Below are positions 12,114-32,968 of a stretch of DNA of 63,386 nucleotides, piece by piece. This stretch comes from Nitrospirota bacterium. Lineage in GTDB: Bacteria; Nitrospirota; UBA9217. The notes under the pieces are model-generated. The model worked only from the letters and a program-made list of their open reading frames with translations, was not told where the DNA came from and did no database searches. The position numbers were made by a program, and so were the translations under genes. The stretch is from positions 1 through 63,386 of the forward strand of contig JAGVOT010000107.1 in the NCBI GenBank assembly GCA_020052615.1. Direction: 5' to 3'. The stretch's first letter is position 1. Every line of letters begins with the position of its first letter.

Positions 12114-13517
12114 ATGAACGTATTCCTGATAATCCCATCGCATCGCGCCATATATGAAAAGCTGACCCCGCCGGAACATCCGCACCTGGGCATCGGCTAT
12201 ATCGCGGCGGTCCTCGAAGCGGAAGGGCACCGCGTACGCATCATCGATATCGATGCCGACGGGCTCGATGCAGAAGGGCTGTCCCGCGCTGTCCGGGCCG
12301 GAGCACCCGATCTGGTGGGCATCACTGCGACGACGCCGCTGATCGAAAACGCCCTTGCCATCGCGAAGCTGGTCAAAGAAACGACCGCGGCCACCACGGT
12401 TCTCGGCGGTATGCATGCCACGCTCATGCCGCTGGAGTGCGCGGCCAGTCCCTGGATCGACGTGGTGGTGGTCGGTGAGGGTGAGCGGACGATCGTCGAT
12501 CTTGTCCGCTGCCTGGAGCGGCGAGGCGATCTGTCCGCTATCGACGGACTGGCGTATAGGCAGCAGGGCCTGCCGGTCCTGACGGGACGGCGGGCGTCGA
12601 TAGAGGATCTGGACACACTTCCGTTCCCGGCACGCCATCTCTTTCAGAACCACACGTATACCTTCCCGGACGCGCTGAACCATCCGGCCTTTCCCATCAT
12701 CACCAGCAGAGGCTGCCCCGGGAACTGCACCTTCTGCACCGCCAAATATATGCACGGCAGGAAGTTCCGGTGCAGGAGCGCGGAGAATGTGCTCGATGAG
12801 ATCGAGCTCTTGATCGCCGATTACGGCGCCCGGGAGATCCACATCTGGGATGATAACTTCATCACCAACCGCGCCCGGGTGTTCCAGTTCAGGGACGGGA
12901 TCCTGCGCCGTAAGATCAGGGTCCCCTTGTCCTTCCCGAACGGGGTGAGGGCCGACTTCATCACTGCCGACCTGCTGGAGGCGCTCAAGGAATGCGGGGC
13001 CTACAGTATCGGGATCGGCGTCGAATCGGGAAACCAGGCCATCCTGAACCAGATCCAGAAAGGCCTGAAACTGGAGCAGATCGAGAAGGCCTTCCGCCTT
13101 GCCCGGGAAGCGGGCATTGAGACGTGGGGATTTTTCCTGATCGGGCTCCCCGGCGAGGACGCGGACGCGATCAGGGACACCATCGATTTCGCCGTCAGGC
13201 TCGACCCGGGTATCGCCAAGTTTCACATACTCAAGCCCTATCCCAAGAGCGCCGTCCATGAGCTGCTGCGCGGTCAGGGGCTGATCATGGACGAGAACTA
13301 TATCCACTACGGCATCCATACCAGGCCCGTGCACAGGCTGCCGACCCTGTCCCAGGACGATCTCCTCACGTGGCAGCGGACAGCGTACCGGCGTTTTTAT
13401 CTCAGGCCCTCCAAGATGATCAAGGAGGTCCTGCGGGTCAAGTCCTTGAACCGGCTGAAGCATAATTTCCTTACCGGCCTGTCGCTCATGAAACAGATGG
13501 GGCCCTTCTCCTCGTGA
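12114..13517 (+). CDS. B12-binding radical SAM enzyme
   Basis: 467 residues. The N-terminal ~140 residues form a cobalamin-binding-type Rossmann domain (PPEHPHLGIGYIAAVLEAEG; VLGGMHATLMP; VVVVGEGERTI). The radical SAM core follows, with CxxxCxxC at C201, C205 and C208 (SRGCPGNCTFC) holding the 4Fe-4S cluster, then IGIGVESGNQAIL and FLIGLPGEDADAI. The order B12 domain then SAM barrel is that of the P-methylase/HpnJ/MiaB-like superfamily group; the substrate is unknown. As first gene of the glycan locus it may methylate or rearrange a sugar or lipid. It resembles the products at 18588 and 29586. Confidence 0.88.
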   Translation: MNVFLIIPSHRAIYEKLTPPEHPHLGIGYIAAVLEAEGHRVRIIDIDADGLDAEGLSRAVRAGAPDLVGITATTPLIENALAIAKLVKETTAATTVLGGMHATLMPLECAASPWIDVVVVGEGERTIVDLVRCLERRGDLSAIDGLAYRQQGLPVLTGRRASIEDLDTLPFPARHLFQNHTYTFPDALNHPAFPIITSRGCPGNCTFCTAKYMHGRKFRCRSAENVLDEIELLIADYGAREIHIWDDNFITNRARVFQFRDGILRRKIRVPLSFPNGVRADFITADLLEALKECGAYSIGIGVESGNQAILNQIQKGLKLEQIEKAFRLAREAGIETWGFFLIGLPGEDADAIRDTIDFAVRLDPGIAKFHILKPYPKSAVHELLRGQGLIMDENYIHYGIHTRPVHRLPTLSQDDLLTWQRTAYRRFYLRPSKMIKEVLRVKSLNRLKHNFLTGLSLMKQMGPFSS

Positions 13518-13594
13518 GTCCGGCTGCGGCCGCCCCGCGCCGGCGGAGCGCGAACGATCACGGACAGGCCGCTCCCTCCCGTTGCAGAAAAGGC

Positions 13595-13622
13595 TTGACA
13601 GTGTGCAAAATGTAATTAACAT
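13595..13622 (+). promoter_or_regulatory. Candidate promoter upstream of the sugar C-methyltransferase gene
   Basis: A perfect TTGACA (13595-13600), 16-base spacer and weak -10 TAACAT (13617-13622) lie in the 226-base gap. The transcript would carry a ~115-base leader containing the two hairpins at 13638-13711. Confidence 0.4.
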
Positions 13623-13637
13623 GGTACAACGCGTTGT

Positions 13638-13711
13638 GATCCCGTGAAAAGGGTTGTGTTTGCGGGATCGTTCCGCCCCGCTCACCGGATAAAGCGGCGT
13701 CGGGGCGGGAC
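13638..13711 (+). promoter_or_regulatory. Two-hairpin structured leader before the C-methyltransferase gene
   Basis: Hairpin 1 pairs GATCCCG (13638-13644) with CGGGATC (13663-13669). Hairpin 2 pairs GTTCCGCCCCG (13670-13680) with CGGGGCGGGAC (13701-13711), 11 bp with one G-U pair. No T-run follows, so it is not a simple terminator. A GAGGAAGGAAAGGGGG tract (13717-13732) separates it from ATG 13744. It could be a regulatory leader; no known riboswitch signature is recognised. Confidence 0.4.
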
Positions 13712-13743
13712 AGATCGAGGAAGGAAAGGGGGATGGCGGAAAC

Positions 13744-14967
13744 ATGCCGAGTTGCCGGATGTGCAAAGGGACGGATCTGTCCCAGTTCCTGGACCTCGGC
13801 TTTACACCGCCGGCCGATCATTTCCTCCGGAAGGAACAGCTGAACGAGCCGGAGGTGTCGTACCCGCTCCGCGTCCTGGTCTGCGCTGACTGCGGGCTGG
13901 TCCAGTTGAGCCACGTCGTCTCGCCGGAGATCCTCTATCGTCACGATTATCCCTATGAATCCTCCATCACCAGGACCGGGCACCTGCACTGGAACGAGTT
14001 TGCCCGGTCCTCGGCGGAGCGGTTCGGGCTGGGGCCCGACGACCTGGTCGTCGACATCGGCAGCAACGTGGGTGTGCTGCTGGAGGCCTTCAAGGCGCAG
14101 GGGCCCCGCGTCCTCGGCGTCGATCCGGCCAGCAACATCGTTCGGATAGCCGAAAAACGGGGGGTCGAGACGCTCTGCGAGTTTTTCAGCATGGATGCGG
14201 CGCGGCATATCCTGTCGAAGCACGGACCGGCTGATCTGATCACCGGCACCAACGTCGTCGCCCACATCGACGACTTCGACGGCCTGGTGCGGGCGGTCAC
14301 GACGCTTCTCAAGCCGCGCGGCGTCTTCGTTCTCGAGGCCCCCTATTTTGTGAACCTCGTCAAAAGCCTGGAATACGATACGATCTATCACGAGCACCTT
14401 TCCTACCTGTCGGTGAGACCGCTGGCCCGTTTTTTCGAGCGCTTTGACCTGGAGATCTTCGATGTGCAGCAGCGTGACATCCACGGGGGGTCGTTTCGGG
14501 TCTTCGTCGCAGCAGCAGGGACCTTCCCCGCGGCGCCCGTGGTCGGGGAGATGCTGCGGCAGGAGGAGTCCCTGGGCATAACGTCGCTCCCGGTCCTCAA
14601 CAAGTTCGCCCGGGCCGTTGAACGGAACCGGCAGGACCTTCTCTGGCTGCTCCGGTCGCTCAAGCATGAGAACAAGCGGATCGCCGGGGTCAGTGCGCCG
14701 GCAAAAGGCATGACGCTGCTGAACTATGCAGGGATCGGATTGGAAACGCTGGACTTCGTCACGGAAAAGTCGGCGCTCAAGATAGGCCGCTACACGCCGG
14801 GGAGGCATATCCCCGTGAGGCCTGATGACGCCCTGCTGGAGGAGATGCCGGAGTACGCCCTTTTGCTGGCCTGGAACTTTGCGGACGAGATCATGGATAA
14901 TCTTGCCGAATATCGTTCCCGCGGCGGCAAGTTCATCATACCCATACCGGAACCCAGGATCGTGTAA
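13744..14967 (+). CDS. Sugar C-methyltransferase (TylCIII/NovU type)
   Basis: 407 residues with the three-part layout of NDP-sugar C-methyltransferases. Residues 1-60 form the zinc-binding part (CRMCKGTDL and CADCGLVQLS, two CxxC pairs). Then comes the SAM-binding domain (VVDIGSNVGVLLEAFKAQG), and finally the C-terminal part with YDTIYHEHLSYLSVRPL, matching the conserved Y-x5-E-H region, and SAPAKGMTLLNYAGI. Enzymes of this group methylate C3 or C5 of a 4-keto-6-deoxy sugar nucleotide, giving a branched sugar. The following cupin and aminotransferase fit a deoxy-aminosugar pathway. No NDP-sugar synthase or dehydratase is in the window. Confidence 0.88.
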   Translation: MPSCRMCKGTDLSQFLDLGFTPPADHFLRKEQLNEPEVSYPLRVLVCADCGLVQLSHVVSPEILYRHDYPYESSITRTGHLHWNEFARSSAERFGLGPDDLVVDIGSNVGVLLEAFKAQGPRVLGVDPASNIVRIAEKRGVETLCEFFSMDAARHILSKHGPADLITGTNVVAHIDDFDGLVRAVTTLLKPRGVFVLEAPYFVNLVKSLEYDTIYHEHLSYLSVRPLARFFERFDLEIFDVQQRDIHGGSFRVFVAAAGTFPAAPVVGEMLRQEESLGITSLPVLNKFARAVERNRQDLLWLLRSLKHENKRIAGVSAPAKGMTLLNYAGIGLETLDFVTEKSALKIGRYTPGRHIPVRPDDALLEEMPEYALLLAWNFADEIMDNLAEYRSRGGKFIIPIPEPRIV

Positions 14968-14992: not shown

Positions 14993-15388
14993 ATGAAAAA
15001 AATACCACTCCGGCCCGCGTTCAGCGATGAACGGGGCACGATCATCGATGTCATTGATCATGAGACGATCAACGCGGTCACGCTGATCACCTTTACGAAA
15101 GGGGCCGTACGGGGAAACCATTACCACAAGGAAACCATCCAGTGGAACTACCTGATGTCCGGAAAGGTCCTGCTGCGCACGCGCAGGAACGGCCAGGAGG
15201 CTGTCGATACGATCATGGCGCCGGGAGACCTGAACAGCACAGGTCCCGAGGAACATCATGCGCTCCTGGCCCTGGAAGATTCAGAGATGATGTTCTTTAC
15301 CAAAGGGCCCCGGGGGGGCAAGGAATATGAGACCGATACGTTCAGGATGGAAGTTCCGCTGATCGATCCGAACACCCCCGGGATTTGA
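14993..15388 (+). CDS. Cupin-fold sugar epimerase/isomerase-like protein
   Basis: 131 residues from ATG 14993, with GGAGGA 12 bases upstream. A single cupin barrel is visible: FSDERGTIIDVIDHE, then RGNHYHKETIQWNYLMSG and GPEEHHALLALED, supplying candidate metal/active-site His residues. Small cupins of this kind in glycan loci include 3,4-ketoisomerases (FdtA/QdtA) and RmlC-like epimerases; the next gene is an aminotransferase, as in FdtA-FdtB pairs. The exact reaction is not certain. The stop overlaps a possible TTG start of the next gene. Confidence 0.7.
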   Translation: MKKIPLRPAFSDERGTIIDVIDHETINAVTLITFTKGAVRGNHYHKETIQWNYLMSGKVLLRTRRNGQEAVDTIMAPGDLNSTGPEEHHALLALEDSEMMFFTKGPRGGKEYETDTFRMEVPLIDPNTPGI

Positions 15389-15402
15389 CGGGTTTGGCTC
15401 CC

Positions 15403-16536
15403 ATGGAAGAGAACAAGGATCTCATACCGGTATGCGAACCGCTCCTGAACGGGAACGAGCTGAAGTATGTCACCGAGGCCGTTACGACCGGATGGATCTC
15501 CTCGAGCGGTCCATTTGTCAGGAAGTTCGAAGAGGGTTTCGCCCGGTATTGCGGCGCACGGTACGGCGTCGGTGTCTGCAACGGTACAACCGCGCTCCAT
15601 CTCGCTGTTGTATCCCTGGGACTGGGCAGCGGCGATGAGGTGGTCATCCCGGACTTCACGATGGCGTCGACGGCATTTGCCCTTTGTTATGCCGGCGCGA
15701 TGCCGGTGTTCGTGGATGCCGAGCCGGACACCTGGAACATCGACCCCCGGAAGATCGAGGAAAAGATCACGCCGCGGACGAAAGCGATCATGGCGGTCTC
15801 CCTCTTCGGCCATCCCTGCGACATGGATCAGGTCCAGGCCATTGCGGACAGACATGGATTGATCGTGGTCGAAGATGCCGCCGAGTCCCATGGCGCGGAA
15901 TACCGGGGCAGGAAGACGGGCAGCCTTGCCCGCGTCACGGCGTTCAGCTTCTTTGCCAACAAGAACCTGACAACGGGCGAGGGCGGGATGGTGGTGACGG
16001 ACGATGAAGACCTGTATCGGAAATGCCTGTATTACCGCAATGTCTGTTTTCCCCCTGATGAGCCCAGAAATTACCGGCACGACGATATCGGCTTCAATTA
16101 CCGGCTTTCGAACCTTCACGCCGCCATCGGGCTTGCTCAAGTTGAAAAGGCCGATGACTATTGCCGGATGCGCATTCACAACCACGGTCTCTATCGCAAG
16201 CACCTTGATGGCATCGGGGGCGTCACCCTGCAGGCAACCAGGGACACGGTGCTGCATGTTCCCTGGATGAACGGCATGGTGGTCGACCCGGACGCGTACG
16301 GCAGGACACGGGACGAGCTGATGGAACAGCTCGCGAGAAACAATATCGAGACCCGCCTGTTCTTTCTCGGGATGCACCGGCAGCCGGCGCTGCTGAAATA
16401 CGGCTGCGACGGCAGCGGGAACTATCCTGTTTCCGACGGCCTTGCCGACAACGGCATGTATCTGCCGTCAGCCAGCGGTTTGCGCGAGGAACAGATCCGG
16501 CATATCTGCCGCATCATACGTGAGTTCCAAAGGTGA
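15403..16536 (+). CDS. DegT/DnrJ/EryC1 sugar aminotransferase (perosamine synthase-like)
   Basis: 377 residues from ATG 15403 (TTG 15385, overlapping the cupin stop, is possible). The PLP-binding features are clear: CNGTTALHLA (phosphate), VVEDAAESHGAEY (Asp to pyridine N) and FSFFANKNLTTGEGG with the Schiff-base lysine K187. The opening NELKYVTEAVTTGWISSSG closely resembles GDP-perosamine synthase (Per/RfbE). It transfers an amino group to a keto-sugar nucleotide, probably C4 of a 4-keto-6-deoxyhexose; the position is inferred. It overlaps the next gene by 4 bases. Confidence 0.85.
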   Translation: MEENKDLIPVCEPLLNGNELKYVTEAVTTGWISSSGPFVRKFEEGFARYCGARYGVGVCNGTTALHLAVVSLGLGSGDEVVIPDFTMASTAFALCYAGAMPVFVDAEPDTWNIDPRKIEEKITPRTKAIMAVSLFGHPCDMDQVQAIADRHGLIVVEDAAESHGAEYRGRKTGSLARVTAFSFFANKNLTTGEGGMVVTDDEDLYRKCLYYRNVCFPPDEPRNYRHDDIGFNYRLSNLHAAIGLAQVEKADDYCRMRIHNHGLYRKHLDGIGGVTLQATRDTVLHVPWMNGMVVDPDAYGRTRDELMEQLARNNIETRLFFLGMHRQPALLKYGCDGSGNYPVSDGLADNGMYLPSASGLREEQIRHICRIIREFQR

Positions 16537-17771
16537 AGGTCGCCTTTGTCATAAGCGGAAAATCGCCCAAGACCGTTCCGGGCGGCCTGGGCGCCTATGC
16601 CTACAGCGTTGCCCGGGTATTCCACGGGATCGGCTTCCGGGTCTTCATCCTGGGGTTCAGCCCCACCGAGGAGGTCCTGGACCTGGGCTTTGCAGAGCTC
16701 GTGCATGTCAGGAACCCCTATAGCAGGCTGCTCGGCCTGGGCGCTGTTCTCGCGAAGCATATCTTTGTCCGCAAAATGGCGGAGATCGCCGAACGAGAGC
16801 GGCCCGAGGAACTGGTGGTCTACAGCGCCGGTGTATGGGGCATCGCGGGCGTCGCGCTGCGGGAGCGGCTGAAGCACCGCCCCGGGAACCTGAAGGTCCT
16901 GGCCGCGTATTTCACGACCCCGAACCACGAGTACGGGGGGCATGTCCGCGGCGCGCCGATCGAGGACTACGGACGGTGGGCGCATCTCCTCGTCAGGGCG
17001 CTTGCCCTGGCGGCCCGGTTCATCAACTGGCCCGTCGAGCGCCGGATGCTGCTGGCCAGCGATGGTGTCGTCGTCCACTATCGGTCCACCCATGCCATGC
17101 TGCGAAGCGAACTCCCCGCGCTGGATGAACGGAAGATAACCCGGATCCCCTACTATAGTTCCCTGTACGACAGGACCTCGGACATTCCCTTCGCGGACCG
17201 GGGCAAGGCCGGCGGCGATCTCCCGACCGTCACCGTACTCTGCCGCCAGGACCCGCGGAAGGGGATCAACGTGTTCCTGCGGGCGGTAAAGATCCTCAAG
17301 GACCGCGGTGTCGGTTTTCACTGCCTCGTCGTGGGCAGCGGCATCTTCCTGGAGCGGAACAAGCGCCTGGCAGAGCGGTTCGGCTTGACCGATCTGGTCA
17401 GGTTCCCGGGATTCGTGGAATCCGCCGAAGCGGTGCTGGACAGCACCGATATCTTCGTGCTTCCCTCCCTCGAGGAGGGGGCCGGCGCCATATCGCTGCT
17501 CGAGGCCATGCAGAAAGGCATTGCCATCGTCACGACCGCCTGCGACGGCATTCCCGAGGATTTCATTCCGGGGGAAACGGCGCTGCTGGTGGAGCCGGGC
17601 GACGCGGGCCAACTGGCCGCGGCAATAGAGCGGCTGGTGACCGATCAGGACCTCCGCGGGAAGCTGGCCCGATCGGTGAAGGCCGACTACGCCCGGAGAT
17701 TCACCTTCGACGGGATGCAGAAGGGGATCAGGGGCCTCGTGGGCGGGGAACAGGCCGGAGCGGGACCATGA
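16533..17771 (+). CDS. GT4 (GT-B fold) glycosyltransferase
   Basis: 412 residues from GTG 16533, overlapping the aminotransferase stop. The N-terminal GT-B domain begins VAFVISGKSPKTVPGGLGAY with the glycine-rich donor loop. The C-terminal domain has VLCRQDPRKGINVFLRAVKI, VGSGIFLERN and the E-x7-E donor-sugar motif in LEEGAGAISLLEAMQKG. It probably adds a sugar to the growing glycan on the cytoplasmic face of the membrane. Donor and acceptor cannot be read out. Confidence 0.87.
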   Translation: MKVAFVISGKSPKTVPGGLGAYAYSVARVFHGIGFRVFILGFSPTEEVLDLGFAELVHVRNPYSRLLGLGAVLAKHIFVRKMAEIAERERPEELVVYSAGVWGIAGVALRERLKHRPGNLKVLAAYFTTPNHEYGGHVRGAPIEDYGRWAHLLVRALALAARFINWPVERRMLLASDGVVVHYRSTHAMLRSELPALDERKITRIPYYSSLYDRTSDIPFADRGKAGGDLPTVTVLCRQDPRKGINVFLRAVKILKDRGVGFHCLVVGSGIFLERNKRLAERFGLTDLVRFPGFVESAEAVLDSTDIFVLPSLEEGAGAISLLEAMQKGIAIVTTACDGIPEDFIPGETALLVEPGDAGQLAAAIERLVTDQDLRGKLARSVKADYARRFTFDGMQKGIRGLVGGEQAGAGP

Positions 17772-17787: not shown

Positions 17788-18591
17788 ATGAAGCCGCCTC
17801 GATACCTCCTCCGGGAAGCCGTCGTGAAAAAGATCCTTCGGCACCGGGAACGCGGCAGGTTCCTGGAGATCGGGTACGGCCAGGGACAGATGCTCGTGAC
17901 CCTGGCCGGGATGGGCTTCCGGGGGGACGGGTACGATCGCTCGCGGCCTGCGCGGCGGGCGGCGGAGGACCTGCTGAGATCGCGCGGCGTCACGGGGATC
18001 ACCCTGCTGGACGAGCTGAACGACGGAGCAGAATATGACTATATCCTGTTCTTCGAGGTGCTTGGCTATTGGCAGGACCCTGCGCGGGAGATGGCGCGCC
18101 TGGGCCGCAGGCTGAAGCCCGGGGGAGCGATGATCTTCTCCTTTTCCAATCAGCGGTCCGCGGGGCACGCAGAAAAACGGACCGGGGAGATGCAGTGCTA
18201 TACGCGCAGCCAGGTCATCGCCATGGTCGAGGGCGGCGCCGGCCTCGTCGTGGACCAGTGCTGGAATTACGGCTTCCCGCTGACGAACATGCTGAAGCCC
18301 GTTCTCGACCTCTTTCATCGGATCAGGCCCCGGGGAGGACCGGAGGACCGGGAGCAGGAGGCGGACAACAGCGGGCTGGCGGGCAGGTTTCTCCCTGTCC
18401 GGCTTGCGTCTCTGATCTTGAACGCTGTTACGATCTCTCCGTTCGTGGTGATGCAGGACCTGTTCCGGGACTCCGACCTGGGCACGGGGTATGTTGTCGT
18501 TGCTGAAAAGACCGGTCCCCGGCAGGGCGCGGCGCAGGACCGGCCAGCCGGCCCCGCCGGAACAACAACCGAGACAGGGAGACGGCAATGA
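17788..18591 (+). CDS. Class I SAM-dependent methyltransferase
   Basis: 267 residues from ATG 17788 after GGGGAA (17778-17783). The SAM-binding motif I is FLEIGYGQGQMLVTLAGMG (residues ~24-42); YDYILFFEVLGYW and LGRRLKPGGAMIFSFSN follow as motifs II and III. The C-terminal third (from residue ~180) has a hydrophobic stretch and may hold acceptor or membrane contacts. Its place between a GT4 and a B12 radical SAM gene suggests glycan or lipid methylation; the substrate is unknown. Its stop overlaps the next start (ATGA). Confidence 0.8.
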   Translation: MKPPRYLLREAVVKKILRHRERGRFLEIGYGQGQMLVTLAGMGFRGDGYDRSRPARRAAEDLLRSRGVTGITLLDELNDGAEYDYILFFEVLGYWQDPAREMARLGRRLKPGGAMIFSFSNQRSAGHAEKRTGEMQCYTRSQVIAMVEGGAGLVVDQCWNYGFPLTNMLKPVLDLFHRIRPRGGPEDREQEADNSGLAGRFLPVRLASLILNAVTISPFVVMQDLFRDSDLGTGYVVVAEKTGPRQGAAQDRPAGPAGTTTETGRRQ

Positions 18592-20075: not shown

Positions 20076-20080
20076 TCCGT

Positions 20081-25026: not shown

Positions 25027-25812
25027 ATGTATTATACGATCACCATCATCATTCCTGCCCTGAACGAGGAGCAGTCGCTCGACGGCAGCGTCGAGAACGT
25101 ACTGTCCGCGTTCCATAGCTGTTCGGTCCGGGGGGAACTGATCATCGTCGATGACGGCAGCGGCGACCGGACCGGCGCGCTTGCAGAAGCGTGGGCGTCC
25201 CGGCACGATTTCATCCGAGTGCTGCATCATGACCGGCCGCAGGGGATCGGCGCCGCCTTCTGGGACGGCGTGCAGCATGCACGGGGCGAGGTCGTTGCCA
25301 TGCTCCCCGGAGACGGCGAGAATGATGCCGCCGAGATCCTCTGCTATCTCCCGCTCATGGCCAAGGTAGATATCGTGGTTCCTTTCGCCTTCAATCCGAA
25401 GGTGCGGCCGTGGCGTCGTCGCTTCCTGTCCTTCCTCTACCACGAGATCGTCTACATCACGTTCTCCCTGGCGCTCAACTATCTGAACGGCACGGTGATG
25501 TACCGGAGGTCCATCCTGCGGGATATCACACTGAAGAGCACGGGGTTCTTCTACCAGACCGAGCTGCTTATCAAGACCATCATCGGCCATAATTATCTGT
25601 ATGCCGAGGTCCCCTATGCCCTGCGCAAGCGTCGGGGCGGCAGGTCGAAGGCCACCACGCTCTGGTCGTTCCTGCGGGTGGCCGGGTCCTACCTGCGGAC
25701 CATCCAGGACGTCAACCCGCTTAAGCGGACCTATGCCCCCGTCACTCCCGACTCCATCACCGCGCGCAGGCTGAGGGAACTGGCGGACTCCGTAGCAGGT
25801 CTGGAGCAATGA
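25027..25812 (+). CDS. GT2 glycosyltransferase
   Basis: 261 residues from ATG 25027 after GAGGAG (25018-25023). The GT-A motifs are IIPALNEEQSLDGSVENVL, IIVDDGSGDRTG and AMLPGDGENDAAEI; unlike its relative at 7842 it has no C-terminal helices beyond one moderately hydrophobic stretch (residues ~138-155). It is similar to DPM1-like synthases. The stop overlaps the transketolase start by 4 bases, tying it to that pathway. Confidence 0.83.
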   Translation: MYYTITIIIPALNEEQSLDGSVENVLSAFHSCSVRGELIIVDDGSGDRTGALAEAWASRHDFIRVLHHDRPQGIGAAFWDGVQHARGEVVAMLPGDGENDAAEILCYLPLMAKVDIVVPFAFNPKVRPWRRRFLSFLYHEIVYITFSLALNYLNGTVMYRRSILRDITLKSTGFFYQTELLIKTIIGHNYLYAEVPYALRKRRGGRSKATTLWSFLRVAGSYLRTIQDVNPLKRTYAPVTPDSITARRLRELADSVAGLEQ

Positions 25813-26600
25813 ACACGACGGGGATCAGCGATACGGCCCGCCGCATCAGGCGGGAGATCATCGAGATGGCATACCGCTCCGGCGGCCCCCATGTCGGGTC
25901 GGCCCTGTCCTGCGCCGATATCATGGCCACCCTGTACGACGGGGTCCTGCGGCTGGAGCCGTGGGAGCAGAGGGATATCTTTATTCTCAGCAAGGCCCAT
26001 GCTGCCATGTCGCTGTATGCGGCCCTTGCCATCAAGGGGATCCTTGATGCGAAGAGCCTGGAAAGTTATTGCCGCGATCGCGGTGCGCTGCCTGCGCACC
26101 TGGACAGGTTCTCCGCTCCCGGGATCGAATGTTCGGCGGGGTCGCTCGGTCACGGGCTCAATATCGGTCTCGGCATGGCCTACGGTTTCAACCGGCAGCG
26201 CTGCGACCGCCGCGTGTTCATCCTGATCGGCGACGGCGAGTCCCAGGAAGGTTCCGTCTGGGAAGGCGCGCTGTTCGCTCCGCGCCTGGGGCTCGGGAAT
26301 GTCACGGTCATCATGGATTACAACAACCTCCAGGGCTATGGACGGCCGCGCGAGATCTGCGGCTTCGAGCCGGTGCAGGCGAAATGGGAGGCCTTCGGCT
26401 GGCAGGTCGTCCTGACGGACGGCCACGATTGCCAGGCCCTGCTCAGGGCCCTGACGGCCGCATCGGACGGACGTCCGCGCATCGTAATCGCCAACACGGT
26501 TAAAGGGAAGGGCGTCTCTTTCATGGAGGATCAGCTCATCTGGCATTATTACACGGTCACTACCGAGCATCATGACCGCGCATTGAGGGAGCTGGCATGA
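25809..26600 (+). CDS. Transketolase-like enzyme, N-terminal (TPP-binding) subunit
   Basis: 263 residues: only the first third of a classical transketolase. Conserved parts are SGGPHVGSALSCADIMATLY, ILSKAHAAMSLYAAL, SAGSLGHGLNIGLGMA, the TPP/metal motif GDGESQEGSVWEGALFA...NN, and KGKGVSFMED with WHYYT. The partner half follows with a 4-base overlap. Split transketolases occur in primary metabolism and also in loci for unusual sugars. Here, beside an SDR and radical SAM genes, it probably moves a two-carbon ketol unit in making a special sugar (inference). Confidence 0.88.
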   Translation: MNTTGISDTARRIRREIIEMAYRSGGPHVGSALSCADIMATLYDGVLRLEPWEQRDIFILSKAHAAMSLYAALAIKGILDAKSLESYCRDRGALPAHLDRFSAPGIECSAGSLGHGLNIGLGMAYGFNRQRCDRRVFILIGDGESQEGSVWEGALFAPRLGLGNVTVIMDYNNLQGYGRPREICGFEPVQAKWEAFGWQVVLTDGHDCQALLRALTAASDGRPRIVIANTVKGKGVSFMEDQLIWHYYTVTTEHHDRALRELA

Positions 26601-27520
26601 GGAACACCTTCATCGATGCCGTGATCGCCCGGGGCGGCAACGATCTCATGATCGTGAGCGGGGACGCGGGATTGGGGGTCTTCGACGAATTCCGGCGGGA
26701 AGTCCCGGATTCATTCCTGAATCTCGGCGTGGCCGAACAGAACATGGCCAGTTTTGCCGCCGGCCTTGCCCTGACGGGCCATAAAGTTTACGTCTATAAC
26801 ATCATTCCTTTTCTCCTCTATCGCTGCTACGAGCAGGTCCGGAATGATATCTGTTACCAGAAGTTGCCCGTGGTCATGGTCGGTGTGGGAAGCGGCGTTA
26901 CCTATGCCCCTGCCGGCATGTCGCACTATGCCGTCGAGGACCTCGGGCTCGCGGCGACACTGCCGAACCTGACGGTCCTCTCTCCCTGCGACGCCCGGGA
27001 AGCTCAAACGGCTGCCGACTTCACGCTCACTGCGCCGGGTCCGGTCTACGTGCGGCTCGCGAAGCGGGGGGAACGTGCCATACACGGGACGCCGGTCCCG
27101 GACATCCTGCAGCCCCTCGTTGTCTCGGCTCCCGATGCCGCTGACTGTGCGATCCTGTTCCACGGTTCTATCGCCGATGACGTGATGGATGCCGGAAAAC
27201 TGCTGAAAGAGCGGGGAATCAGCGCCAGGGTCATATCGTTGCCCTGCCTGCAGCCTCTGCAGGAAGATGTCCTGTTGGATATGCTCCAGGGAGTTCGGAT
27301 GGTCGTGACGGTCGAAGAGCATTACGCGGAGACGGGCCTGGGCGGATCGGTCGCCCGGCTTGCAGCGAATCGCCGCCCGGCATGGAAACTCAGGGAACGG
27401 GGAATTCCGAACCGCTTTCTGCATGAGATCCATGATGCGGGTGGGATGCGAAGATGTTTCGGACTGAATGCAGCCGCCTTGGCCCGGGACATCGAGGGGT
27501 GGCTGAACGATGGCCGATAG
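26597..27520 (+). CDS. Transketolase-like enzyme, C-terminal subunit
   Basis: 307 residues. The pyrimidine-binding domain shows IVSGDAGLGVFDEF, then FLNLGVAEQNMASFAAGLAL with the Glu expected to activate the TPP ring, and GVGSGVTYAPAGMSHYAVED. The C-terminal transketolase domain follows (DCAILFHGSIADDVMDAGKL; VVTVEEHYAETGLGG). Together with the upstream gene it makes a complete heteromeric enzyme. It overlaps the following reductase gene by 11 bases. Confidence 0.87.
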   Translation: MRNTFIDAVIARGGNDLMIVSGDAGLGVFDEFRREVPDSFLNLGVAEQNMASFAAGLALTGHKVYVYNIIPFLLYRCYEQVRNDICYQKLPVVMVGVGSGVTYAPAGMSHYAVEDLGLAATLPNLTVLSPCDAREAQTAADFTLTAPGPVYVRLAKRGERAIHGTPVPDILQPLVVSAPDAADCAILFHGSIADDVMDAGKLLKERGISARVISLPCLQPLQEDVLLDMLQGVRMVVTVEEHYAETGLGGSVARLAANRRPAWKLRERGIPNRFLHEIHDAGGMRRCFGLNAAALARDIEGWLNDGR

Positions 27521-28373
27521 AAGAAAGATACTGTTGCTCGGCGACAGCGGCAAAATGGGGCGGGCTCTTCGGCAAGCAGGTGCAGGAGCCGACGAGATCA
27601 TCTGTCACAACAGCCGCACCTTCGATGCCGCTGATTTCGGACAGGTCCGGGCAATCATCGAGCAAACCCGTCCTGACCTGCTGCTGAACACGGTTGCGTT
27701 CCTGGGCATCGATCCCTCAGAGAAGGAACCTGAAAAGGCAATGCGATTGAACGCGCTCTACCCGCGGCTTCTTGCGGAATGCTCACGCGAACAGGACTTC
27801 ACCCTGGTCCATTTCAGCACCGACGCCGTGTTCAGCGATGCAGGACAGGATGCATATGTTGAGAGCGACGGGGCGGGCCCGGTGAATATCTACGGCTTGA
27901 CCAAGTTCGGCGGAGACTGCTTTGTCCAGTCCCTGGCGCGGCGGTATTATATCTTCCGGGTGTCGCTCCTGTTCGGCCCCACTGACCGGCAGACCCAGTT
28001 CGTGGAGCGCATGCTGGGCAGGATCCGGGCTGGCGAGAAGAAGCTCCGGATCGCAGATGACATCGTATGCTCCCCGACGTTCACGCCGGATGCTGCAGCA
28101 GCTGCACTGCGGATCGTCAGGCAGCAGGAACCCTACGGCCTGTATCATTTGGTCAACGCAGGCGCCGCTTCCCTGTATGAGCTGATGCACCGCATCGTTC
28201 GTGAGTTGAACGTCGACATCGAGGTGGAACGGGGGTCCCACCGGGACTTCCCCGCCATAGGAAGGAAGAATACCAGAACGCCGCTCCGCTCCGAGAGGAT
28301 CGCGCCGCTACGGCCATGGGAAGACGCGGTCGCGGACTACTGCCGGGGCGTGGCATTGGAATGGAGCAGGTAG
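27510..28373 (+). CDS. RmlD-like NAD(P)-dependent sugar reductase (SDR superfamily)
   Basis: 287 residues, close to the usual RmlD length. The N-terminal nucleotide loop is ILLLGDSGKMGRAL; LLNTVAFLGIDPSEKEPEKA replaces the NAAAYTAVDxAE of true RmlD. The catalytic set is present: HFSTDAVF (Ser/Thr) and YGLTKFGG (YxxxK). GPTDRQTQFVERML and CSPTFTPDAAAAAL follow family order. It probably reduces a keto-sugar nucleotide, perhaps the product of the adjoining transketolase. It ends directly against the next radical SAM gene. Confidence 0.82.
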   Translation: MADRRKILLLGDSGKMGRALRQAGAGADEIICHNSRTFDAADFGQVRAIIEQTRPDLLLNTVAFLGIDPSEKEPEKAMRLNALYPRLLAECSREQDFTLVHFSTDAVFSDAGQDAYVESDGAGPVNIYGLTKFGGDCFVQSLARRYYIFRVSLLFGPTDRQTQFVERMLGRIRAGEKKLRIADDIVCSPTFTPDAAAAALRIVRQQEPYGLYHLVNAGAASLYELMHRIVRELNVDIEVERGSHRDFPAIGRKNTRTPLRSERIAPLRPWEDAVADYCRGVALEWSR

Positions 28374-29459
28374 ATGACCGATAAGTTCGTCATGGATGGG
28401 CATAAGCTGCATTGGCACCTGGACCGCGTCGTCGACTGGCAGCGTGGAAAACGGATCGCCCCGCTCCATATCGATGTGGGCCTGAGCAAGGGCTGCAACA
28501 TCCGCTGCATCTACTGTTTCGGCGCCATGCAGGGGAACAGTTACCGGGAGGGGGCCACAGCATATTTCCCCCGGGAGCCGCTCCTCCGCTATCTTCAGGA
28601 TGCCGGGGCGGTCGGGGTGCGATCTATGGCATTTGTCGGCGAGGCGGAGCCGTTGCTCAATCCGCATGTTTACGAAGCGGTCGTATGCGGCAAGAAGAGC
28701 GGAGTGGATATCGCACTGGGAACGAACGGCATCCTGTTCGACACCGGCAAAAAAGGGGAGGAGGCGTTGGAGCACCTTACCTGGATGCGTTTCAATATCA
28801 GCGCGGCCTCCGGCGATGCCTACCAGAGGATCCACGGGAGCGGCGCCTTCGATGGGGCCCTGCGAAAGATCAAGCACTGCGTGGATGTGAAGCGCCGCAA
28901 CCGGCTGAACGTCACGATCGGATTGCAGATGGTGCTCATGCCGGAGAACGTCGATCAGGTGATACCGCTGGCGCAGCTCGGGAGAGAAACCGGCGTGGAT
29001 TATCTCGTCATCAAGCAATGCAGCGACTCCGTCGAGAACACCCTCGGAGTCTTCAAGCGGCTCGACCAGTACGACATGTTCTCCGATGTACTCGCCCAGG
29101 CAGAGGCCCTGACCAGCGACGACTATTCCGTGATCGTCAAATGGCGCAAGGTGACCAACCGGGGAAAACGCAGCTACGAGCGTTGTCTCGGCATCCCCTT
29201 CCTTCTGTATTCGAGCGGCGACGGTCGGCTGTATCCCTGCGGGGCGTTTTTCGATCATCGCGAAGAGGAATTCCGCATGGGAGACCTGACTGAGCGATCG
29301 TTCAAGGAAATCCTGGAAAGCGAGCGTTACTGGGATGTGGTGGAGCGGGTCAGGAACATCGATGTCCGGTCTGTTTGTTATTCGAATTGCCGGACCGATG
29401 CGGTAAACGATTTTCTGTGGAGATTGGCCCACCCGCCCGACCACGTCAACTTCATCTGA
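28374..29459 (+). CDS. Radical SAM enzyme with SPASM-like C-terminus (paralogue of 23920)
   Basis: 361 residues; the ATG follows the upstream TAG with no gap. Cluster cysteines C41, C45, C48 (GCNIRCIYC) are at the same residues as in the 23920 product. AFVGEAEPLLNPHVYE and IALGTNGILFDTG match MYGGEGEPLLHRDI and VGVTTNGVLLTAK there. The C-terminal region has RCLGIPFLLYSSGDGRLYPC, CYSNC and the tail AHPPDHVNFI. The two enzymes flank the GT2/transketolase/reductase cassette and may act on successive intermediates. The substrate is unknown. Confidence 0.87.
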   Translation: MTDKFVMDGHKLHWHLDRVVDWQRGKRIAPLHIDVGLSKGCNIRCIYCFGAMQGNSYREGATAYFPREPLLRYLQDAGAVGVRSMAFVGEAEPLLNPHVYEAVVCGKKSGVDIALGTNGILFDTGKKGEEALEHLTWMRFNISAASGDAYQRIHGSGAFDGALRKIKHCVDVKRRNRLNVTIGLQMVLMPENVDQVIPLAQLGRETGVDYLVIKQCSDSVENTLGVFKRLDQYDMFSDVLAQAEALTSDDYSVIVKWRKVTNRGKRSYERCLGIPFLLYSSGDGRLYPCGAFFDHREEEFRMGDLTERSFKEILESERYWDVVERVRNIDVRSVCYSNCRTDAVNDFLWRLAHPPDHVNFI

Positions 29460-29585: not shown

Positions 29586-31001
29586 ATGAAGATATGTTTT
29601 GTACAAAAACAGGCATTCCCCTATTTCGGCATCATGTCGCTGGCCGGCCGTCTGGGAGCTGCGGGCATCGAAAGCGACGTCGTGATCACAAACCTGGAGC
29701 GGGACTTCATCAGCGCTCTCAAGGAGAGCGCGCCGGACATCATCGGGATTTCCTGTCTTAGCACGGAGCATGCGTGGCTGAAGGATACGGCAGAAAGGAT
29801 CAAAACAACCTTCCCGTCGACCGCGCTGATGGCGGGAGGCATCCATGCCATCCTGTACCCGGAGACGGTGCTTGCGATCCCGGCGATCGACTTTGTCTGC
29901 ACTGGTGAAGGGGAGGGGACGATCCTGGCGCTCTGCTCGGCGATCGCCGAAGGATCCTCCGTCGACCAGATCAAAGGGATCGGCTATCGTCGCCAGGGAC
30001 AGCCCGTGCTGAATGGCCGCGAAACGGACGTAGTCGATGTCAATGACAGCTTCGAAGACCGGCTGGTCTACTACCGGCGTTACGCCCTGCTGCGTGAGGA
30101 TGAACTGAAACAGTTCATATCCTCGCGCGGCTGTCCGTACCAGTGCACATTCTGCTTTAACCAGCAGCTGCACCGGCTTTTCCCGGCCCAGAAAAACCGC
30201 GTTCGCAGGAAATCCCCGAAGCACCTGGTGGAGGAGATCGAACGTGCGCGGGCCACGGCGCCGATCCTGGCGGTCTTCTTCGCAGACGACCTTTTCACTT
30301 CCAGCAAGAAATGGCTGCAGGAGTTCGTCCCCCTCTACCGGCAGCGGATCGGGGTGCCCTTCATGTGCATTACCCGGGCCGATCACCTGGATGACGAGAC
30401 GGGCGAGTTGCTCAAACGGGCCGGCTGTCATACGGTAAGCTTCGGGATCGAAAGCGGCAGTGAGGAGATCAGGACGCGCCTGCTCAGGAAGCAGATAACG
30501 GATGCGGCGATCATCCGCTGCAGCGATGTTCTTACACGCAAAGGGATCCGCATTCAGACGTCGAACATGTTCTGTCTGCCCGACGAGACGCTTGAGGACG
30601 CATTGAGCACGGTCAAGCTCAATATCCGGATCAAAGCGGATTTCGTCTTCACCCCGATCTTCATGCCCTTTCCCGGGACAGAACTGGCGGCCTATTGTAT
30701 CGAAAAGAACTATTTGCCGGACGACTTCGGCTTTGAGCACCTTCCCCAGTCGTTCCTCCGTCACAGCATCCTTGCCCTTCCCGACCGCAAACGGATCGAG
30801 AACGTACAGCGGATCGCCTATTTTCTCGTAAAATATCCGGCTCTGTTCAGAATGGCAGAACCGCTTGTCCGCCACGTGCGGGCCGCATGGTGCTATTATC
30901 CGTTTCTTTTTATCGGGACCCTGCTGCGGTATAAGTCCGAACGGGGGATATCGCTTGCAGGCGCCATCCGGTTCCTCTGGCGGTTCAGAAAGAGTTATTG
31001 A
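29586..31001 (+). CDS. B12-binding radical SAM enzyme
   Basis: 471 residues from ATG 29586; no strong RBS is visible in the 126-base gap upstream. The B12-type domain shows GIMSLAGRLGAAGIESDVVI, MAGGIHAILYPE and FVCTGEGEGTIL. The SAM cluster is C183, C187, C190 (SRGCPYQCTFC), then HTVSFGIESGSEEIRTRL and CLPDETLEDALSTV. The last ~90 residues are hydrophobic in part (YYPFLFIGTLL), suggesting membrane association. It is the third such enzyme in the locus, followed by two small membrane proteins. Confidence 0.88.
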   Translation: MKICFVQKQAFPYFGIMSLAGRLGAAGIESDVVITNLERDFISALKESAPDIIGISCLSTEHAWLKDTAERIKTTFPSTALMAGGIHAILYPETVLAIPAIDFVCTGEGEGTILALCSAIAEGSSVDQIKGIGYRRQGQPVLNGRETDVVDVNDSFEDRLVYYRRYALLREDELKQFISSRGCPYQCTFCFNQQLHRLFPAQKNRVRRKSPKHLVEEIERARATAPILAVFFADDLFTSSKKWLQEFVPLYRQRIGVPFMCITRADHLDDETGELLKRAGCHTVSFGIESGSEEIRTRLLRKQITDAAIIRCSDVLTRKGIRIQTSNMFCLPDETLEDALSTVKLNIRIKADFVFTPIFMPFPGTELAAYCIEKNYLPDDFGFEHLPQSFLRHSILALPDRKRIENVQRIAYFLVKYPALFRMAEPLVRHVRAAWCYYPFLFIGTLLRYKSERGISLAGAIRFLWRFRKSY

Positions 31002-31022
31002 TTCCCAGTGAGGTGGCGTCCT

Positions 31023-31544
31023 GTGGGAGAGTTGTTGCTGGCATCCGGCACCGTTATCCTGGCCTTCGCGGTTCATGTGCTGGTCTGGAAGATCAGGCTG
31101 CCCCGGAAACAGACCCGTGCGATCATCCTGATATTCTTCGGCGTTCTTGCCGCGGTCGTGATCACGTTGCCGCGCATCGCCGGCATGCTGCCCGTGCTCG
31201 GGTTGCGCGAACCGGTGCCGCTTCCGGTCTACCTGAATATCATCTGCTTCGTCGTGTCGATCGCGCTGGCTTACATGATCACGTACTCCGCGGTCGAGGT
31301 CGACAGCCCTTCTCTCATCATGGTCCTCGCCATATACCGGGCAGGGGACGCCGGACTGGCGGTACGGCATTTCAACGAAATCCTGAACGATGCGTTGCTT
31401 GTAGAGCCGCGGATCAGAGACCTCGAATTCGACAGGATGGCAACACGCAATGGCGAAGTATATCAACTGACAGCCAAGGGAAGGCTTATGGCGCGGATAT
31501 TCATCCTGCACCGCAGGCTCCTTGGAGCCGGAAAAGGAGGGTAG
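31023..31544 (+). CDS. Small membrane protein with winged-helix-like C-terminus
   Basis: About 173 residues. GTG 31023 has AGGTGG (31011-31016) six bases upstream and is preferred to GTG 31008, which has none. Three helices (residues ~5-25, 35-58, 70-95) are followed by a cytoplasmic-looking part, YRAGDAGLAVRHFNEILNDA...YQLTAKGRLMARIF, whose LTxKGRxxA segment resembles the wing end of winged-helix domains. No family is recognised. The next gene has the same layout, so the two may be a heteromeric pair. Confidence 0.72.
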   Translation: MGELLLASGTVILAFAVHVLVWKIRLPRKQTRAIILIFFGVLAAVVITLPRIAGMLPVLGLREPVPLPVYLNIICFVVSIALAYMITYSAVEVDSPSLIMVLAIYRAGDAGLAVRHFNEILNDALLVEPRIRDLEFDRMATRNGEVYQLTAKGRLMARIFILHRRLLGAGKGG

Positions 31545-31548
31545 GAGC

Positions 31549-32082
31549 ATGACAACCGGTTTTCTTCCTGTGGCCGCTCCACTGCTCTGTCTTATGGCGA
31601 ATGTTTCGGTACAGATGCTCGCCTTCCGTCTTCGTCCTGAGTTTGGACTCCTTCGATCGGAATATCTGGGTTTCGCTGCGGGACTGGCGGGGGTCATCGC
31701 ATTACATCTGGTGCACCTTTCGTCAGTGCCGCTTCCGGGATACGGCGATATCGCGGGAGGAGCGTTGCAGAGCCTGATATCCTATGCGGCACTTGGGTAT
31801 TGCTATTTTCATTTTGTCAATCTTGGCGAAACGGCACGCCGGATCAGATTACTGAGGGAACTGCAGGATGGCGGCGGACGTCTCAGTCACCGGCAGCTTC
31901 TGACGAGGTATAATGCCGCGGAGATCGTCGGGCGACGGCTGAAGCGATTGCTTGGTACCGGTCAGATCGTGCTGCGCGATGAGCGCTATTTCATCGGGAA
32001 TCCTGCCGTGCTATCGATCGCCAAAGCCATGGTGATGCTTAAAGTCCTGTTGCTGGGGAAAACAAGCGAGTATGATGCATAA
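31549..32082 (+). CDS. Small membrane protein with winged-helix-like C-terminus (partner)
   Basis: About 177 residues from ATG 31549, preceded by GGAG at 31544-31547 and AAGGAGGG at 31534-31541. Three or four helices cover residues 1-95; then LLRELQDGGGRLSHRQLLTR and VGRRLKRLLGTGQIVLRDER form a likely winged-helix domain. The topology mirrors the preceding protein although the sequences differ. It overlaps the next radical SAM gene by 11 bases. A regulatory or scaffold role at the membrane is a guess. Confidence 0.7.
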   Translation: MTTGFLPVAAPLLCLMANVSVQMLAFRLRPEFGLLRSEYLGFAAGLAGVIALHLVHLSSVPLPGYGDIAGGALQSLISYAALGYCYFHFVNLGETARRIRLLRELQDGGGRLSHRQLLTRYNAAEIVGRRLKRLLGTGQIVLRDERYFIGNPAVLSIAKAMVMLKVLLLGKTSEYDA

Positions 32083-32968
32083 CGAAAAAGAAGATCAACC
32101 GTTCGAATCGGCAGGTCCGAATCCGATCCGGATCCCCGACAACTACAACTACATCGCTGTGTTCCTCACCCTGGACTGTCCGCTCAGGTGCAGCTACTGC
32201 ATCAATCGGTTCGGCGGCGAGGCGGGGCGGCCGCAGAGAATGCTTTCCGGCAGGGAATGGGTTCTCGGGCTGAACAGGCTGGTAACACGTCCGGACCTTC
32301 CCATTACCCTGCAGGGAGGCGAACCGAGCCTGCATCCCGATTTTTATGACATTCTTGCCCATCTCCGTCCCGATATCAATATCGACCTGCTAACAAACCT
32401 GGAATTCGACGTTGAGGAGTTCATCACCCGGGTGGATCCTCGCCGTATCAAACGGGAGGCTCCCTATGCTTCGATCAGGGTGAGCTATCATCCCGAGATG
32501 ATGGACCTTGCTGCGCTCATCAAGAAGGTGCTTCGCCTGCAGGATGCCGGGTTCAGCGTCGGCATCTGGGGGGTACTGCACCCGGACCAGGAGCAGGATA
32601 TCCATGCGGCTCAAGAGCGTGCACGGAAAGCGGGGATTGATTTCAGAACGAAGGAATTCCTGGGTAAGTATAAAGGCAAACTGCACGGCAGCTATAAATA
32701 TCCCGGCGCTTGCGACGGTCACCGCAAACGCCCGGTGGAGTGCAGGACCACCGAACTGCTGATCGGTCCGTCGGGCGGCGTATACCGGTGTCACAGCGAT
32801 CTGTATAACGGACGGGGCGAGATCGGGCACATGACCGATCCGGACTTCGTGATCAATGAAATATTCCGGCCGTGCGAGGCTTTCGGCAGCTGCAATCCCT
32901 GCGATGTAAAGATAAAGACCAACAGATTCCAGGTAGACGGTCATACCTCGGTCGAGATACGGGGATGA
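32072..32968 (+). CDS. Radical SAM enzyme
   Basis: 298 residues (ATG 32072, or 32075 directly after). The cluster motif is C36, C40, C43 (DCPLRCSYC), then LPITLQGGEPSLHPDFYDIL, the GGEP motif that binds SAM, and IDLLTNLEF. The C-terminus has ECRTTELLIGPSGGVYRCHS and FGSCNPC, cysteine-containing segments resembling a reduced SPASM or twitch region. It is distinct from the HVNFI-ending pair. Its overlap with the small membrane gene suggests one operon from 29586 to here. Confidence 0.84.
   Translation: MMHNEKEDQPFESAGPNPIRIPDNYNYIAVFLTLDCPLRCSYCINRFGGEAGRPQRMLSGREWVLGLNRLVTRPDLPITLQGGEPSLHPDFYDILAHLRPDINIDLLTNLEFDVEEFITRVDPRRIKREAPYASIRVSYHPEMMDLAALIKKVLRLQDAGFSVGIWGVLHPDQEQDIHAAQERARKAGIDFRTKEFLGKYKGKLHGSYKYPGACDGHRKRPVECRTTELLIGPSGGVYRCHSDLYNGRGEIGHMTDPDFVINEIFRPCEAFGSCNPCDVKIKTNRFQVDGHTSVEIRG

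Follow-up and report, generated by a model that had tools for sequence, protein, structure and literature searches.

A radical SAM–thiamine enzyme cassette in an envelope-type glycan locus of a Nitrospirota bacterium, probably building unusual branched sugars

The window, i.e. the whole stretch of 63,386 nucleotides that was analysed, carries a glycan locus with six radical SAM genes (denoted R1 to R6), all on the forward strand and all encoding the CxxxCxxC motif. The six open reading frames proposed in the initial annotation are indeed present, and their products exceed the Pfam cut-off for Radical_SAM (PF04055, 29.5 bits) with 85.3 (R1), 74.5 (R2), 78.1 (R3), 49.0 (R4), 71.8 (R5) and 37.5 bits (R6). 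As also proposed, a B12-binding domain (PF02310) is found over the cut-off in three of them only, namely R1 (12114–13517), R2 (18588–20075) and R5 (29586–31001). The remaining three, R3 (23920–24990), R4 (28374–29459) and R6 (32072–32968), were correctly described as lacking this domain but they are not plain radical SAM enzymes, since R3 and R4 additionally pass the SPASM cut-off (PF13186) and R6 has five further invariant cysteines.

Between and around these genes the same (+) strand encodes a set of glycan enzymes. R1 is followed by a sugar C-methyltransferase (13744–14967, Methyltransf_13/14), a cupin of the sugar-modifying type (14993–15388, beginning at the start codon read there; Polysacc_synt_C 34.3 bits and over the cut-off, Cupin_2 below it), a DegT/DnrJ/EryC1 sugar aminotransferase (15385–16536, 392 bits), a group 1, GT4-like glycosyltransferase (16533–17771) and a SAM methyltransferase (17788–18591). 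Downstream of R2 there are two multi-pass membrane proteins (20078–21082 and 21079–22812), the second of which appears GT-C-like, and a GT9 protein of the heptosyltransferase family (22951–23877, PF01075 47.8 bits). R3 is followed by a GT2 protein, presumably of the polyprenyl-phosphate-sugar-synthase type (25027–25812), by the two subunits of a split transketolase (25809–26600 and 26597–27520), by an RmlD-like sugar reductase (27510–28373, 183 bits) and by R4, a paralogue of R3 with 32% identity in BLASTP. Two small membrane proteins, s1 (31008–31544) and s2 (31522–32082), separate R5 from R6, and a further multi-pass, apparently GT-C-like membrane protein follows at 33005–34801. A frame at 30998 was discarded as a wrong frame because relatives show the gene at 31008–31544. 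No Pfam family over the cut-off was found for the membrane proteins at 20078, 21079, 33005, 31008 and 31522, and that at 20078 was recognized by hydropathy. The glycan setting claimed previously is thus well founded on Pfam matches to GT2, GT4, GT9, DegT, RmlD and the C-methyltransferase.

One scan for relatives of R3 yielded 378 sequences. The neighbourhoods of the best 80 of these together with the window constitute a set of 81 loci, which end at contig ends and in which genes were called with a simple greedy caller and clustered automatically, without hand check. The pair of s1 and s2, for example, occurs in ten of them.

In the whole 3.99-Mb genome there are 49 radical SAM matches and other small clusters, e.g. 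four genes within 4.4 kb on contig C66, and eight PF02310 matches over the cut-off, three of them at this locus. One could therefore consider a chance accumulation of unrelated genes in a genome rich in radical SAM enzymes. Against this, six of 49 genes fell within 20,855 bp in 39 of 200,000 random placements (a model that ignores operon clustering), and the order R3–ThDP enzyme–GT2–R4 recurs across phyla. Chance is refuted for R3, R4 and R6 and may still apply to R1 and R2; for the locus as a whole we regard it as highly improbable. A seventh radical SAM gene (45482–46510) is part of a known GeoRSP system at 45187–47403 that is distinct from the glycan locus and whose PqqD-family, radical SAM and SPASM proteins reach 164.2, 599.4 and 339.1 bits against cut-offs of 100, 400 and 300 (TIGR04302/04303/04304). 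Lying roughly 10 kb downstream and possessing a full gene set of its own, it was set apart from the glycan system.

R1, R2 and R5 are B12-binding radical SAM enzymes by domain (PF02310, PF04055 and CxxxCxxC), with cobalamin binding and catalysis predicted. The initial annotation had stressed the B12 enzymes. On this reading, C-methylases or ring-rearranging enzymes of this kind would define the locus and its product would be a C-methylated glycan or a hopanoid-like lipid. Three such genes are present here, 44 of the 81 loci (best 80 of 378 plus the window) have some, and a classical C-methyltransferase adjoins R1. Moreover, the nearest solved chains of R1 are 9ccb, a B12-dependent radical SAM glutamine C-methylase acting on methyl-coenzyme M reductase, which is the best match, and 6fd2, apramycin oxidoreductase 4 (which we take to be AprD4). 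On the other hand, even R1, the highest-scoring of the three, stays far under the cut-offs for BchE (214.5 versus 481.35 bits), HpnJ (199.8 versus 577.6) and HpnR (106.5 versus 650), and R2 and R5 score lower still. A hopanoid or chlorophyll-type identity was rejected on these NCBIfam cut-offs, and no hopanoid gene was detected among the window genes scanned with Pfam. None of the six radical SAM proteins reaches a named NCBIfam cut-off, HpnJ and HpnR included, nor do any of them show the clear orthology to housekeeping functions that had been named beforehand as refuting evidence.

In the best 80 related loci no close orthologue of R1, R2 or R5 was found, the identity being at most 32%; R2 has no close relative there at all. 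Since the tree of these enzymes has many long branches and weak forks, orthology was assigned neither to R1 nor to R2. R5 falls in a supported clade (98*) with B12-binding enzymes similarly positioned in other loci. Because of the low scores and the missing close orthologues the three look like variable, divergent accessories, a role predicted from sequence, and they are not the conserved function of the locus. We consider it rather unlikely that they define it. From the earlier interpretation we retain a glycan locus unusually rich in radical SAM enzymes, which gives good grounds to expect unusual sugars; B12-dependent methylation as the main theme is not supported.

The conserved and informative enzymes are R3, R4 and R6, which do not bear the B12 domain and travel with a two-subunit thiamine enzyme. 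R3 and R4 combine the radical SAM core with a C-terminal cysteine motif as in SPASM/Twitch proteins. In the R3 family C268, C330 and C334 are found in 54 of 54 sequences and C286 in 53 of 54. These four auxiliary cysteines (classical SPASM domains have seven) are arranged as CX17C and CX3C and are accompanied by a conserved C-terminal H-x-N-F-I motif; the five further cysteines of R6 are invariant in 30 of 30 sequences. From these patterns the extra cysteines of R3, R4 and R6 are predicted to bind an auxiliary Fe–S cluster.

The best fold match of R3, over its whole length, is DesII, a TDP-4-amino-4,6-dideoxyglucose ammonia-lyase (Z 25.6, rmsd 4.0, 342 aligned residues). SkfB (Z 24.9) and SuiB (Z 24.6), both of which act on peptides, tie with it, and a shared fold does not show the function of R3. 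By profile R3 is closest to BlsE, DesII, AbmM, MoaA, SpeY, viperin and BtrN, which presumably act mostly on sugars, nucleotides or aminocyclitols. With 52.5 bits it remains far below the cut-off of the DesII equivalog (TIGR04426, 450 bits). The C-terminal part of R3 aligns with BtrN, in which the cysteine spacings are CX15-18C and CX2C. CX17C and CX3C of R3 resemble these, although compared with the Twitch/SPASM dehydrogenases BtrN and SpeY its presumed substrate class differs and its identity to BtrN is about 15–16%. To DesII the identity is 16–20%, and according to PMC11434129 DesII binds a single cluster, in contrast to R3 with its four conserved C-terminal cysteines. The same paper describes the dehydrogenation of TDP-quinovose by DesII. 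Radical chemistry on an NDP-sugar as in DesII is a candidate for R3, to which the fold match (Z 25.6) points.

As many SPASM proteins are maturases of ribosomal peptides (RiPPs), the near-ties of R3 with SkfB and SuiB, together with SkfB as the top Foldseek match of R6, could suggest the same for R3, R4 and R6. However, the gaps flanking R3 in the window are 42 and 36 bp long and leave no room for a precursor peptide gene, and the recurrent neighbours in the 81 loci (best 80 of 378 plus the window) are sugar enzymes. A role as peptide maturases is disfavoured on both grounds and appears very improbable.

R3, a two-subunit ThDP enzyme, a GT2 protein and a second radical SAM protein of the R3 family (here R4) form a conserved unit, which in the window is combined with GT9 and R6. 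This cassette, with R3 as its anchor, is shared by many anaerobes and extends over Nitrospirota, Desulfobacterota, Planctomycetota and Omnitrophota as well as methanotrophic archaea. Among the 81 loci (best 80 of 378 plus the window) the neighbours of R3 include a two-subunit ThDP enzyme in 72, GT2 in 58 and a second R3-family enzyme in 50. Nine loci, some of which are not short contigs, show no ThDP gene of the counted clusters. GT9 stands beside R3 in 32 loci and R6 occurs in 30, 28 of them with GT9. GT9/R6 (34 loci) and a heptose-activation set of GmhA-like, HldE-like and adenylyltransferase proteins (38 loci) replace each other and never occur together (0 of 81). The R3 tree requires a minimum of 13 switches of ThDP class (67 labelled rows; lowest value in 30 shuffles, 23) and of eight switches between heptose set and GT9–R6 (72 rows; lowest value in the shuffles, 20). 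Modules are thus exchanged under a constant R3, in agreement with an R3 product that serves as the common acceptor.

The subtype of the second radical SAM enzyme follows the ThDP class. Full transketolases occur with the R4 or R3' types in 14 of 15 loci and R4' alone accompanies the remaining ThDP classes in 27 of 28 (Fisher 2.8e-9 for the 43 loci, uncorrected for kinship). Phylogenetic pairing, however, offers only four independent contrasts at starred branches, which point entirely or almost entirely in the expected direction (p 0.125). The protein L099:9812–11029 has no direct R3/R4 match and is R4' by default, so that without it R4' counts 35 instead of 36; in the 43-locus test it is an exception either way. 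RmlD adjoins the R4-type enzyme in five of five R4 loci and a methyltransferase adjoins R3' in 11 of 14.

The ThDP enzyme of the locus has the gene form of two-subunit carboligases of sugar clusters, with PF00456 (107.4 bits) and the ThDP-binding GDG..NN motif on the N-terminal chain and the pyrimidine-binding PF02779 together with PF02780 on the other, whose VAEQNM (EQN) motif contains what we take to be the catalytic glutamate. It is not the sole transketolase, three further Transketolase_N matches over the cut-off being present elsewhere in the genome. Whereas the module itself is read directly from gene order, its chemistry is our interpretation and that of the glycan lies beyond sequence evidence. 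Together the enzymes probably build unusual branched sugars by radical chemistry and thiamine-dependent two-carbon transfer. R3 would abstract hydrogen from a sugar, probably nucleotide-activated and perhaps heptose-derived, and convert a hydroxyl to a ketone, the electrons leaving via the auxiliary Fe–S cluster. The ThDP enzyme would then join a two-carbon unit to this ketone, hydroxyacetyl in the transketolase type and acetyl from pyruvate in the E1-alpha/beta type of relatives. RmlD and R4 would tailor the branch, and GT2, GT9 and the membrane glycosyltransferases would place the sugar on a surface glycan. To this reading of a widespread modular envelope-glycan cassette we assign a probability of roughly 40%. 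RmlD could act on rhamnose instead, and within the window we identified no set of enzymes, for instance with a 4,6-dehydratase, from which R3 or its partners would receive a nucleotide keto sugar.

Alternatively, R3 and R4 may be sugar dehydratases, epimerases or C–C bond formers, and the split transketolase could supply an ordinary pentose or heptose precursor such as sedoheptulose 7-phosphate without any branching. Sedoheptulose 7-phosphate is the natural feedstock of the GmhA-, HldE- and adenylyltransferase-type proteins in the alternative module, and the native activity of DesII is that of an ammonia lyase (PMC11434129). Yet E1-alpha/beta enzymes, present in 41 of the 81 loci (best 80 of 378 plus the window), are unable to give sedoheptulose, and they exchange with the transketolase class beneath the same R3, which makes this alternative rather doubtful.

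For the proposed branching there are precedents among two-subunit E1-type and split-transketolase enzymes, for which C2 branches on keto sugars were reported or proposed (PMC12247030; PMC4753412). The E1-type carboligases of aldgamycin, kibdelomycin and avilamycin (AviB1/AviB2) and the split transketolases of miharamycin and amipurimycin are encoded by two genes in sugar clusters, as here. These known cases are antibiotic clusters, in contrast to the envelope-type loci of anaerobes described here, where radical SAM enzymes stand beside them. YerE, the ThDP enzyme of yersiniose biosynthesis, attaches two carbons as a branch to a sugar of LPS (a C2-branched octose of O-antigen), resembling our proposal, but it is a single flavoprotein and the available text on it mentions no radical SAM partner. 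By analogy, the acceptor of the split transketolase is a putative ketone. According to PMC12247030 there are 13 putative split transketolases, all from Streptomycetes and uncharacterised, and ketone branching by such enzymes was never characterised in vitro. If our reading is true, this reaction comes within reach outside Streptomyces, and a large uncharacterised radical SAM/SPASM family (378 relatives in one scan) gains a chemical role. High-carbon branched sugars would also be predicted on uncultured anaerobes (Omnitrophota, Nitrospirota and Methanoperedens). To our knowledge the surface chemistry of these organisms is largely unknown.

Among the titles and abstracts listed in literature searches there was no description of the combination of R3, ThDP enzyme, GT2 and second radical SAM genes. 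We tentatively propose, as a possibility still open to considerable doubt, a previously undescribed envelope-sugar logic that spans phyla. An anaerobic radical SAM dehydrogenase would provide a keto sugar or keto heptose, an interchangeable two-subunit ThDP enzyme of transketolase or pyruvate E1 type would attach either hydroxyacetyl or acetyl as a branch, and a branch-matched second radical SAM enzyme would remodel this branch, with bacteria and methanotrophic archaea swapping modules and so diversifying high-carbon branched surface sugars. The heptose module replacing GT9/R6 in relatives comprises the same protein families as GSU2085–GSU2087 (hldE, GSU2086, gmhA) of Geobacter sulfurreducens, for which Tn-Seq revealed electrode-growth defects (PMC5585712). 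Geobacter sp. OR-1 (locus L048) holds two cassette types.

The six radical SAM genes claimed by the initial annotation are all present on the forward strand with exact coordinates, and its division of them also holds: R1 (12114), R2 (18588) and R5 (29586) contain B12-binding and radical SAM domains, and R3 (23920), R4 (28374) and R6 (32072) are devoid of B12-binding domains. Both R3 and R4 combine a SPASM with the radical SAM domain, and R6 possesses besides its radical SAM domain five further cysteines, shared by all of 30 sequences. Neighboring genes encode GT4-like, GT2 and GT9 glycosyltransferases, a DegT aminotransferase, a C-methyltransferase, RmlD (27510-28373), a split transketolase (subunits TKN, 25809-26600, and TKC, 26597-27520) and several large membrane proteins. 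Between 13744 and 34801 the genes are separated by short or negative gaps, apart from those preceding 22951 (138 bp) and 29586 (126 bp); this arrangement points to a single transcript or a small number of them. Genome-wide there are 49 radical SAM matches in 3.99 Mb; under a random-placement model that takes no account of operons six genes fell within this span in 39 of 200,000 trials, and such an accumulation by random placement is unlikely. A seventh radical SAM gene (45482) is part of a complete GeoRSP system on the forward strand (45187-47403; PqqD-family chaperone, radical SAM/SPASM protein and SPASM-only protein, all three scoring above the NCBIfam cut-offs). Upstream of it lie genes of a cupin (44870) and an ArsP-like permease (42796); this system is already known and functionally unexplained. 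The same genome contains a second radical SAM cluster with two divergent gene pairs within 4.4 kb (G000:C66:42572-46912), which adjoins the gene of a 1003-residue membrane protein.

For comparison named genome contigs were scanned once with a nine-sequence R3 alignment. Clustering of ORFs from the best 80 of the 378 relatives obtained, together with those from window positions 8001-40000, gave 81 loci that all contain R3, followed in frequency by a gene of a thiamine (ThDP) enzyme (72 loci), GT2 (58), a second member of the R3/R4 family (50), a B12-radical SAM gene (44), GT9 (32) and R6 (30). According to Pfam and NCBIfam the ThDP enzyme occurs in two forms, either as split transketolase (TK) or as E1-alpha/beta of the pyruvate dehydrogenase type. 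Typical gene orders are GT9-R3-E1a-E1b-GT2-R4'-R6 and c204-AdT-AdT/PfkB-SIS-R3-ThDP-GT2-R4'.

The second radical SAM enzyme tracks the class of its ThDP partner. Three ThDP classes (E1, short TK with a second chain of 164 residues, and full TK) and three classes of second radical SAM enzymes (R4 with 65-73% identity to window R4, R4' with 38-48%, and R3' with 20-26% to R3) were distinguished in the 43 loci having one ThDP class and a second radical SAM gene. Of the 15 loci with full TK, 14 have R4 or R3', and of the 28 with another class, 27 have R4' alone (Fisher 2.8e-9, a statistic that ignores kinship). The phylogenetic test is underpowered since starred branches yield just four independent pairs, nearly all in the expected direction (p 0.125). 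RmlD immediately precedes R4 in all five R4 loci including the window, and a methyltransferase precedes R3' in 11 of 14. This means that TKN-TKC-RmlD-R4 of the window is a recurring sub-cassette, which Geobacter sp. OR-1 (L048) shares. A quick-method tree of R3 with 81 rows, in which 25 of the 78 inner branches are starred, requires no fewer than 13 changes of ThDP class among 67 rows (shuffles required 23 or more), and the closest sister, L037 (77% identity in R3), has the E1 type in contrast with the TK type of the window.

In the simplest scheme proposed, with an order of steps deduced from the constancy of R3 and the co-variation of ThDP form and second radical SAM enzyme, R3 would make a ketone, to which the ThDP enzyme would add two carbons from a donor that depends on the enzyme type. 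The matching branch would then be tailored by R4/RmlD or by R3'/methyltransferase, before GT2, GT9 and membrane glycosyltransferases incorporate the branched sugar into a surface glycan. A role of the ThDP enzyme in supplying precursors only is weakened by its E1 form, because an E1-type enzyme cannot make sedoheptulose. The proposed branching has models in both ThDP forms: two-subunit E1-type enzymes are reported to attach acetyl branches to keto sugars, and for split transketolases of the miharamycin and amipurimycin pathways, uncharacterized in vitro, transfer of hydroxyacetyl to such a sugar has been proposed (PMC12247030); this review knows split transketolases from Streptomycetes only.

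AlphaFold2 models R3 with confidence (pLDDT 93.5, pTM 0.91), and the first six Foldseek matches of the model are DesII. In VIA-align DesII (Z 25.6, rmsd 4.0 Å, 342 aligned) ties with SkfB (24.9) and SuiB (24.6), with BlsE (24.5) close; BlsE, DesII and 8wm2 (AbmM) lead the sequence profile matches, where BtrN aligns with the C-terminal part of R3. All 54 sequences retain cysteines 41, 45, 48, 268, 330 and 334, and 53 of them retain C286. DesII differs from R3, being described with a single cluster (PMC11434129). The C-terminal end reads H-x-N-F-[ILV] in 80 of 81 R3, 5 of 5 R4 and 32 of 36 R4' ORFs (of the four others three end at a contig end and one is an artefact in L099), and mostly H-x-x-F-V in R3'; at a guess this tail may have a role at the active site. 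The R6 model is good (pLDDT 90.4) and matches a mix of SPASM and Twitch proteins.

Around this core two modules exclude each other. GT9 and/or R6 occur in 34 of the 81 loci (best 80 of 378 and the window), and at least one gene of a heptose set (GmhA-like SIS isomerase, HldE-like kinase/adenylyltransferase, lone adenylyltransferase, GSU2086-family protein) in 38; none of the 81 has both, and nine, several being short contigs, have neither. For the 72 rows of the R3 tree that carry a module label, at least eight changes of state are needed (30 shuffles gave a minimum of 20), and the window and L037, both of GT9/R6 type, are nested among mostly heptose-set Nitrospirota. Other contigs of the window's genome encode a heptose adenylyltransferase and a GSU2086/SIS pair, so that ADP-heptose supply is plausible. 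Membrane proteins with C-terminal TPR repeats (88-3593), in a layout similar to that of the eukaryotic O-mannosyltransferase TMTC, recur near R3 in 26 of 81 loci (cluster 33, e.g., L037:3779-5758). A pair of small membrane proteins, s1/s2 (31008-32082), is conserved in 10 of 81 loci (window, L039, L061, L076, L096, L097, L102, L104, L109 and L111). In each, transmembrane segments at the N-terminus are followed by a C-terminal part, winged-helix-like as judged by eye; a Pfam search gave no family over cut-off, and the pair may regulate the glycan locus as membrane-anchored factors.

The density of these enzymes among glycosyltransferase genes had at first suggested a heavily modified envelope polymer or lipid, given that B12-radical SAM enzymes often methylate unactivated carbons or rearrange rings. 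The observed radical SAM cluster stands, and this reading of it is half right. R1, R2 and R5 reach at most 32, 28 and 32% identity to any B12-radical SAM enzyme of the 80 loci. We interpret the three as variable decorators, for which methylation is possible. R5 belongs to a supported clade (98*), among whose members are B12-radical SAM enzymes encoded between GT2 and GT9/R6 in loci of Deltaproteobacteria type. In one Deltaproteobacteria group a B12-radical SAM gene takes the place of R4, and directly before R3 lies a divergently oriented gene of a 650-890-residue protein (L053, L057, L063, L071, L078, L080, L081, L087, L100, L101 and L105), putatively copper-ATPase-like by its sequence start. 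The novelty of the locus lies in the non-B12 radical SAM enzymes and their thiamine partners; no description of this gene combination was found in open-licence PubMed Central papers, and one may exist elsewhere in print.

Among the R3 relatives listed the closest is from a Nitrospirota bacterium (77% identity), followed by Nitrospirae, which makes this phylum the probable source of the window. A search for R4 (E 1e-30) in 99 genomes gave matches in 11, both counts including the own genome, and in neither of the two same-genus genomes; its distribution is patchy, as with variable surface-glycan loci. In Methanoperedens-type archaea (L054, L055) the R3 cassette is present and comprises full TK and a methyltransferase, which suggests cassette transfer between domains.
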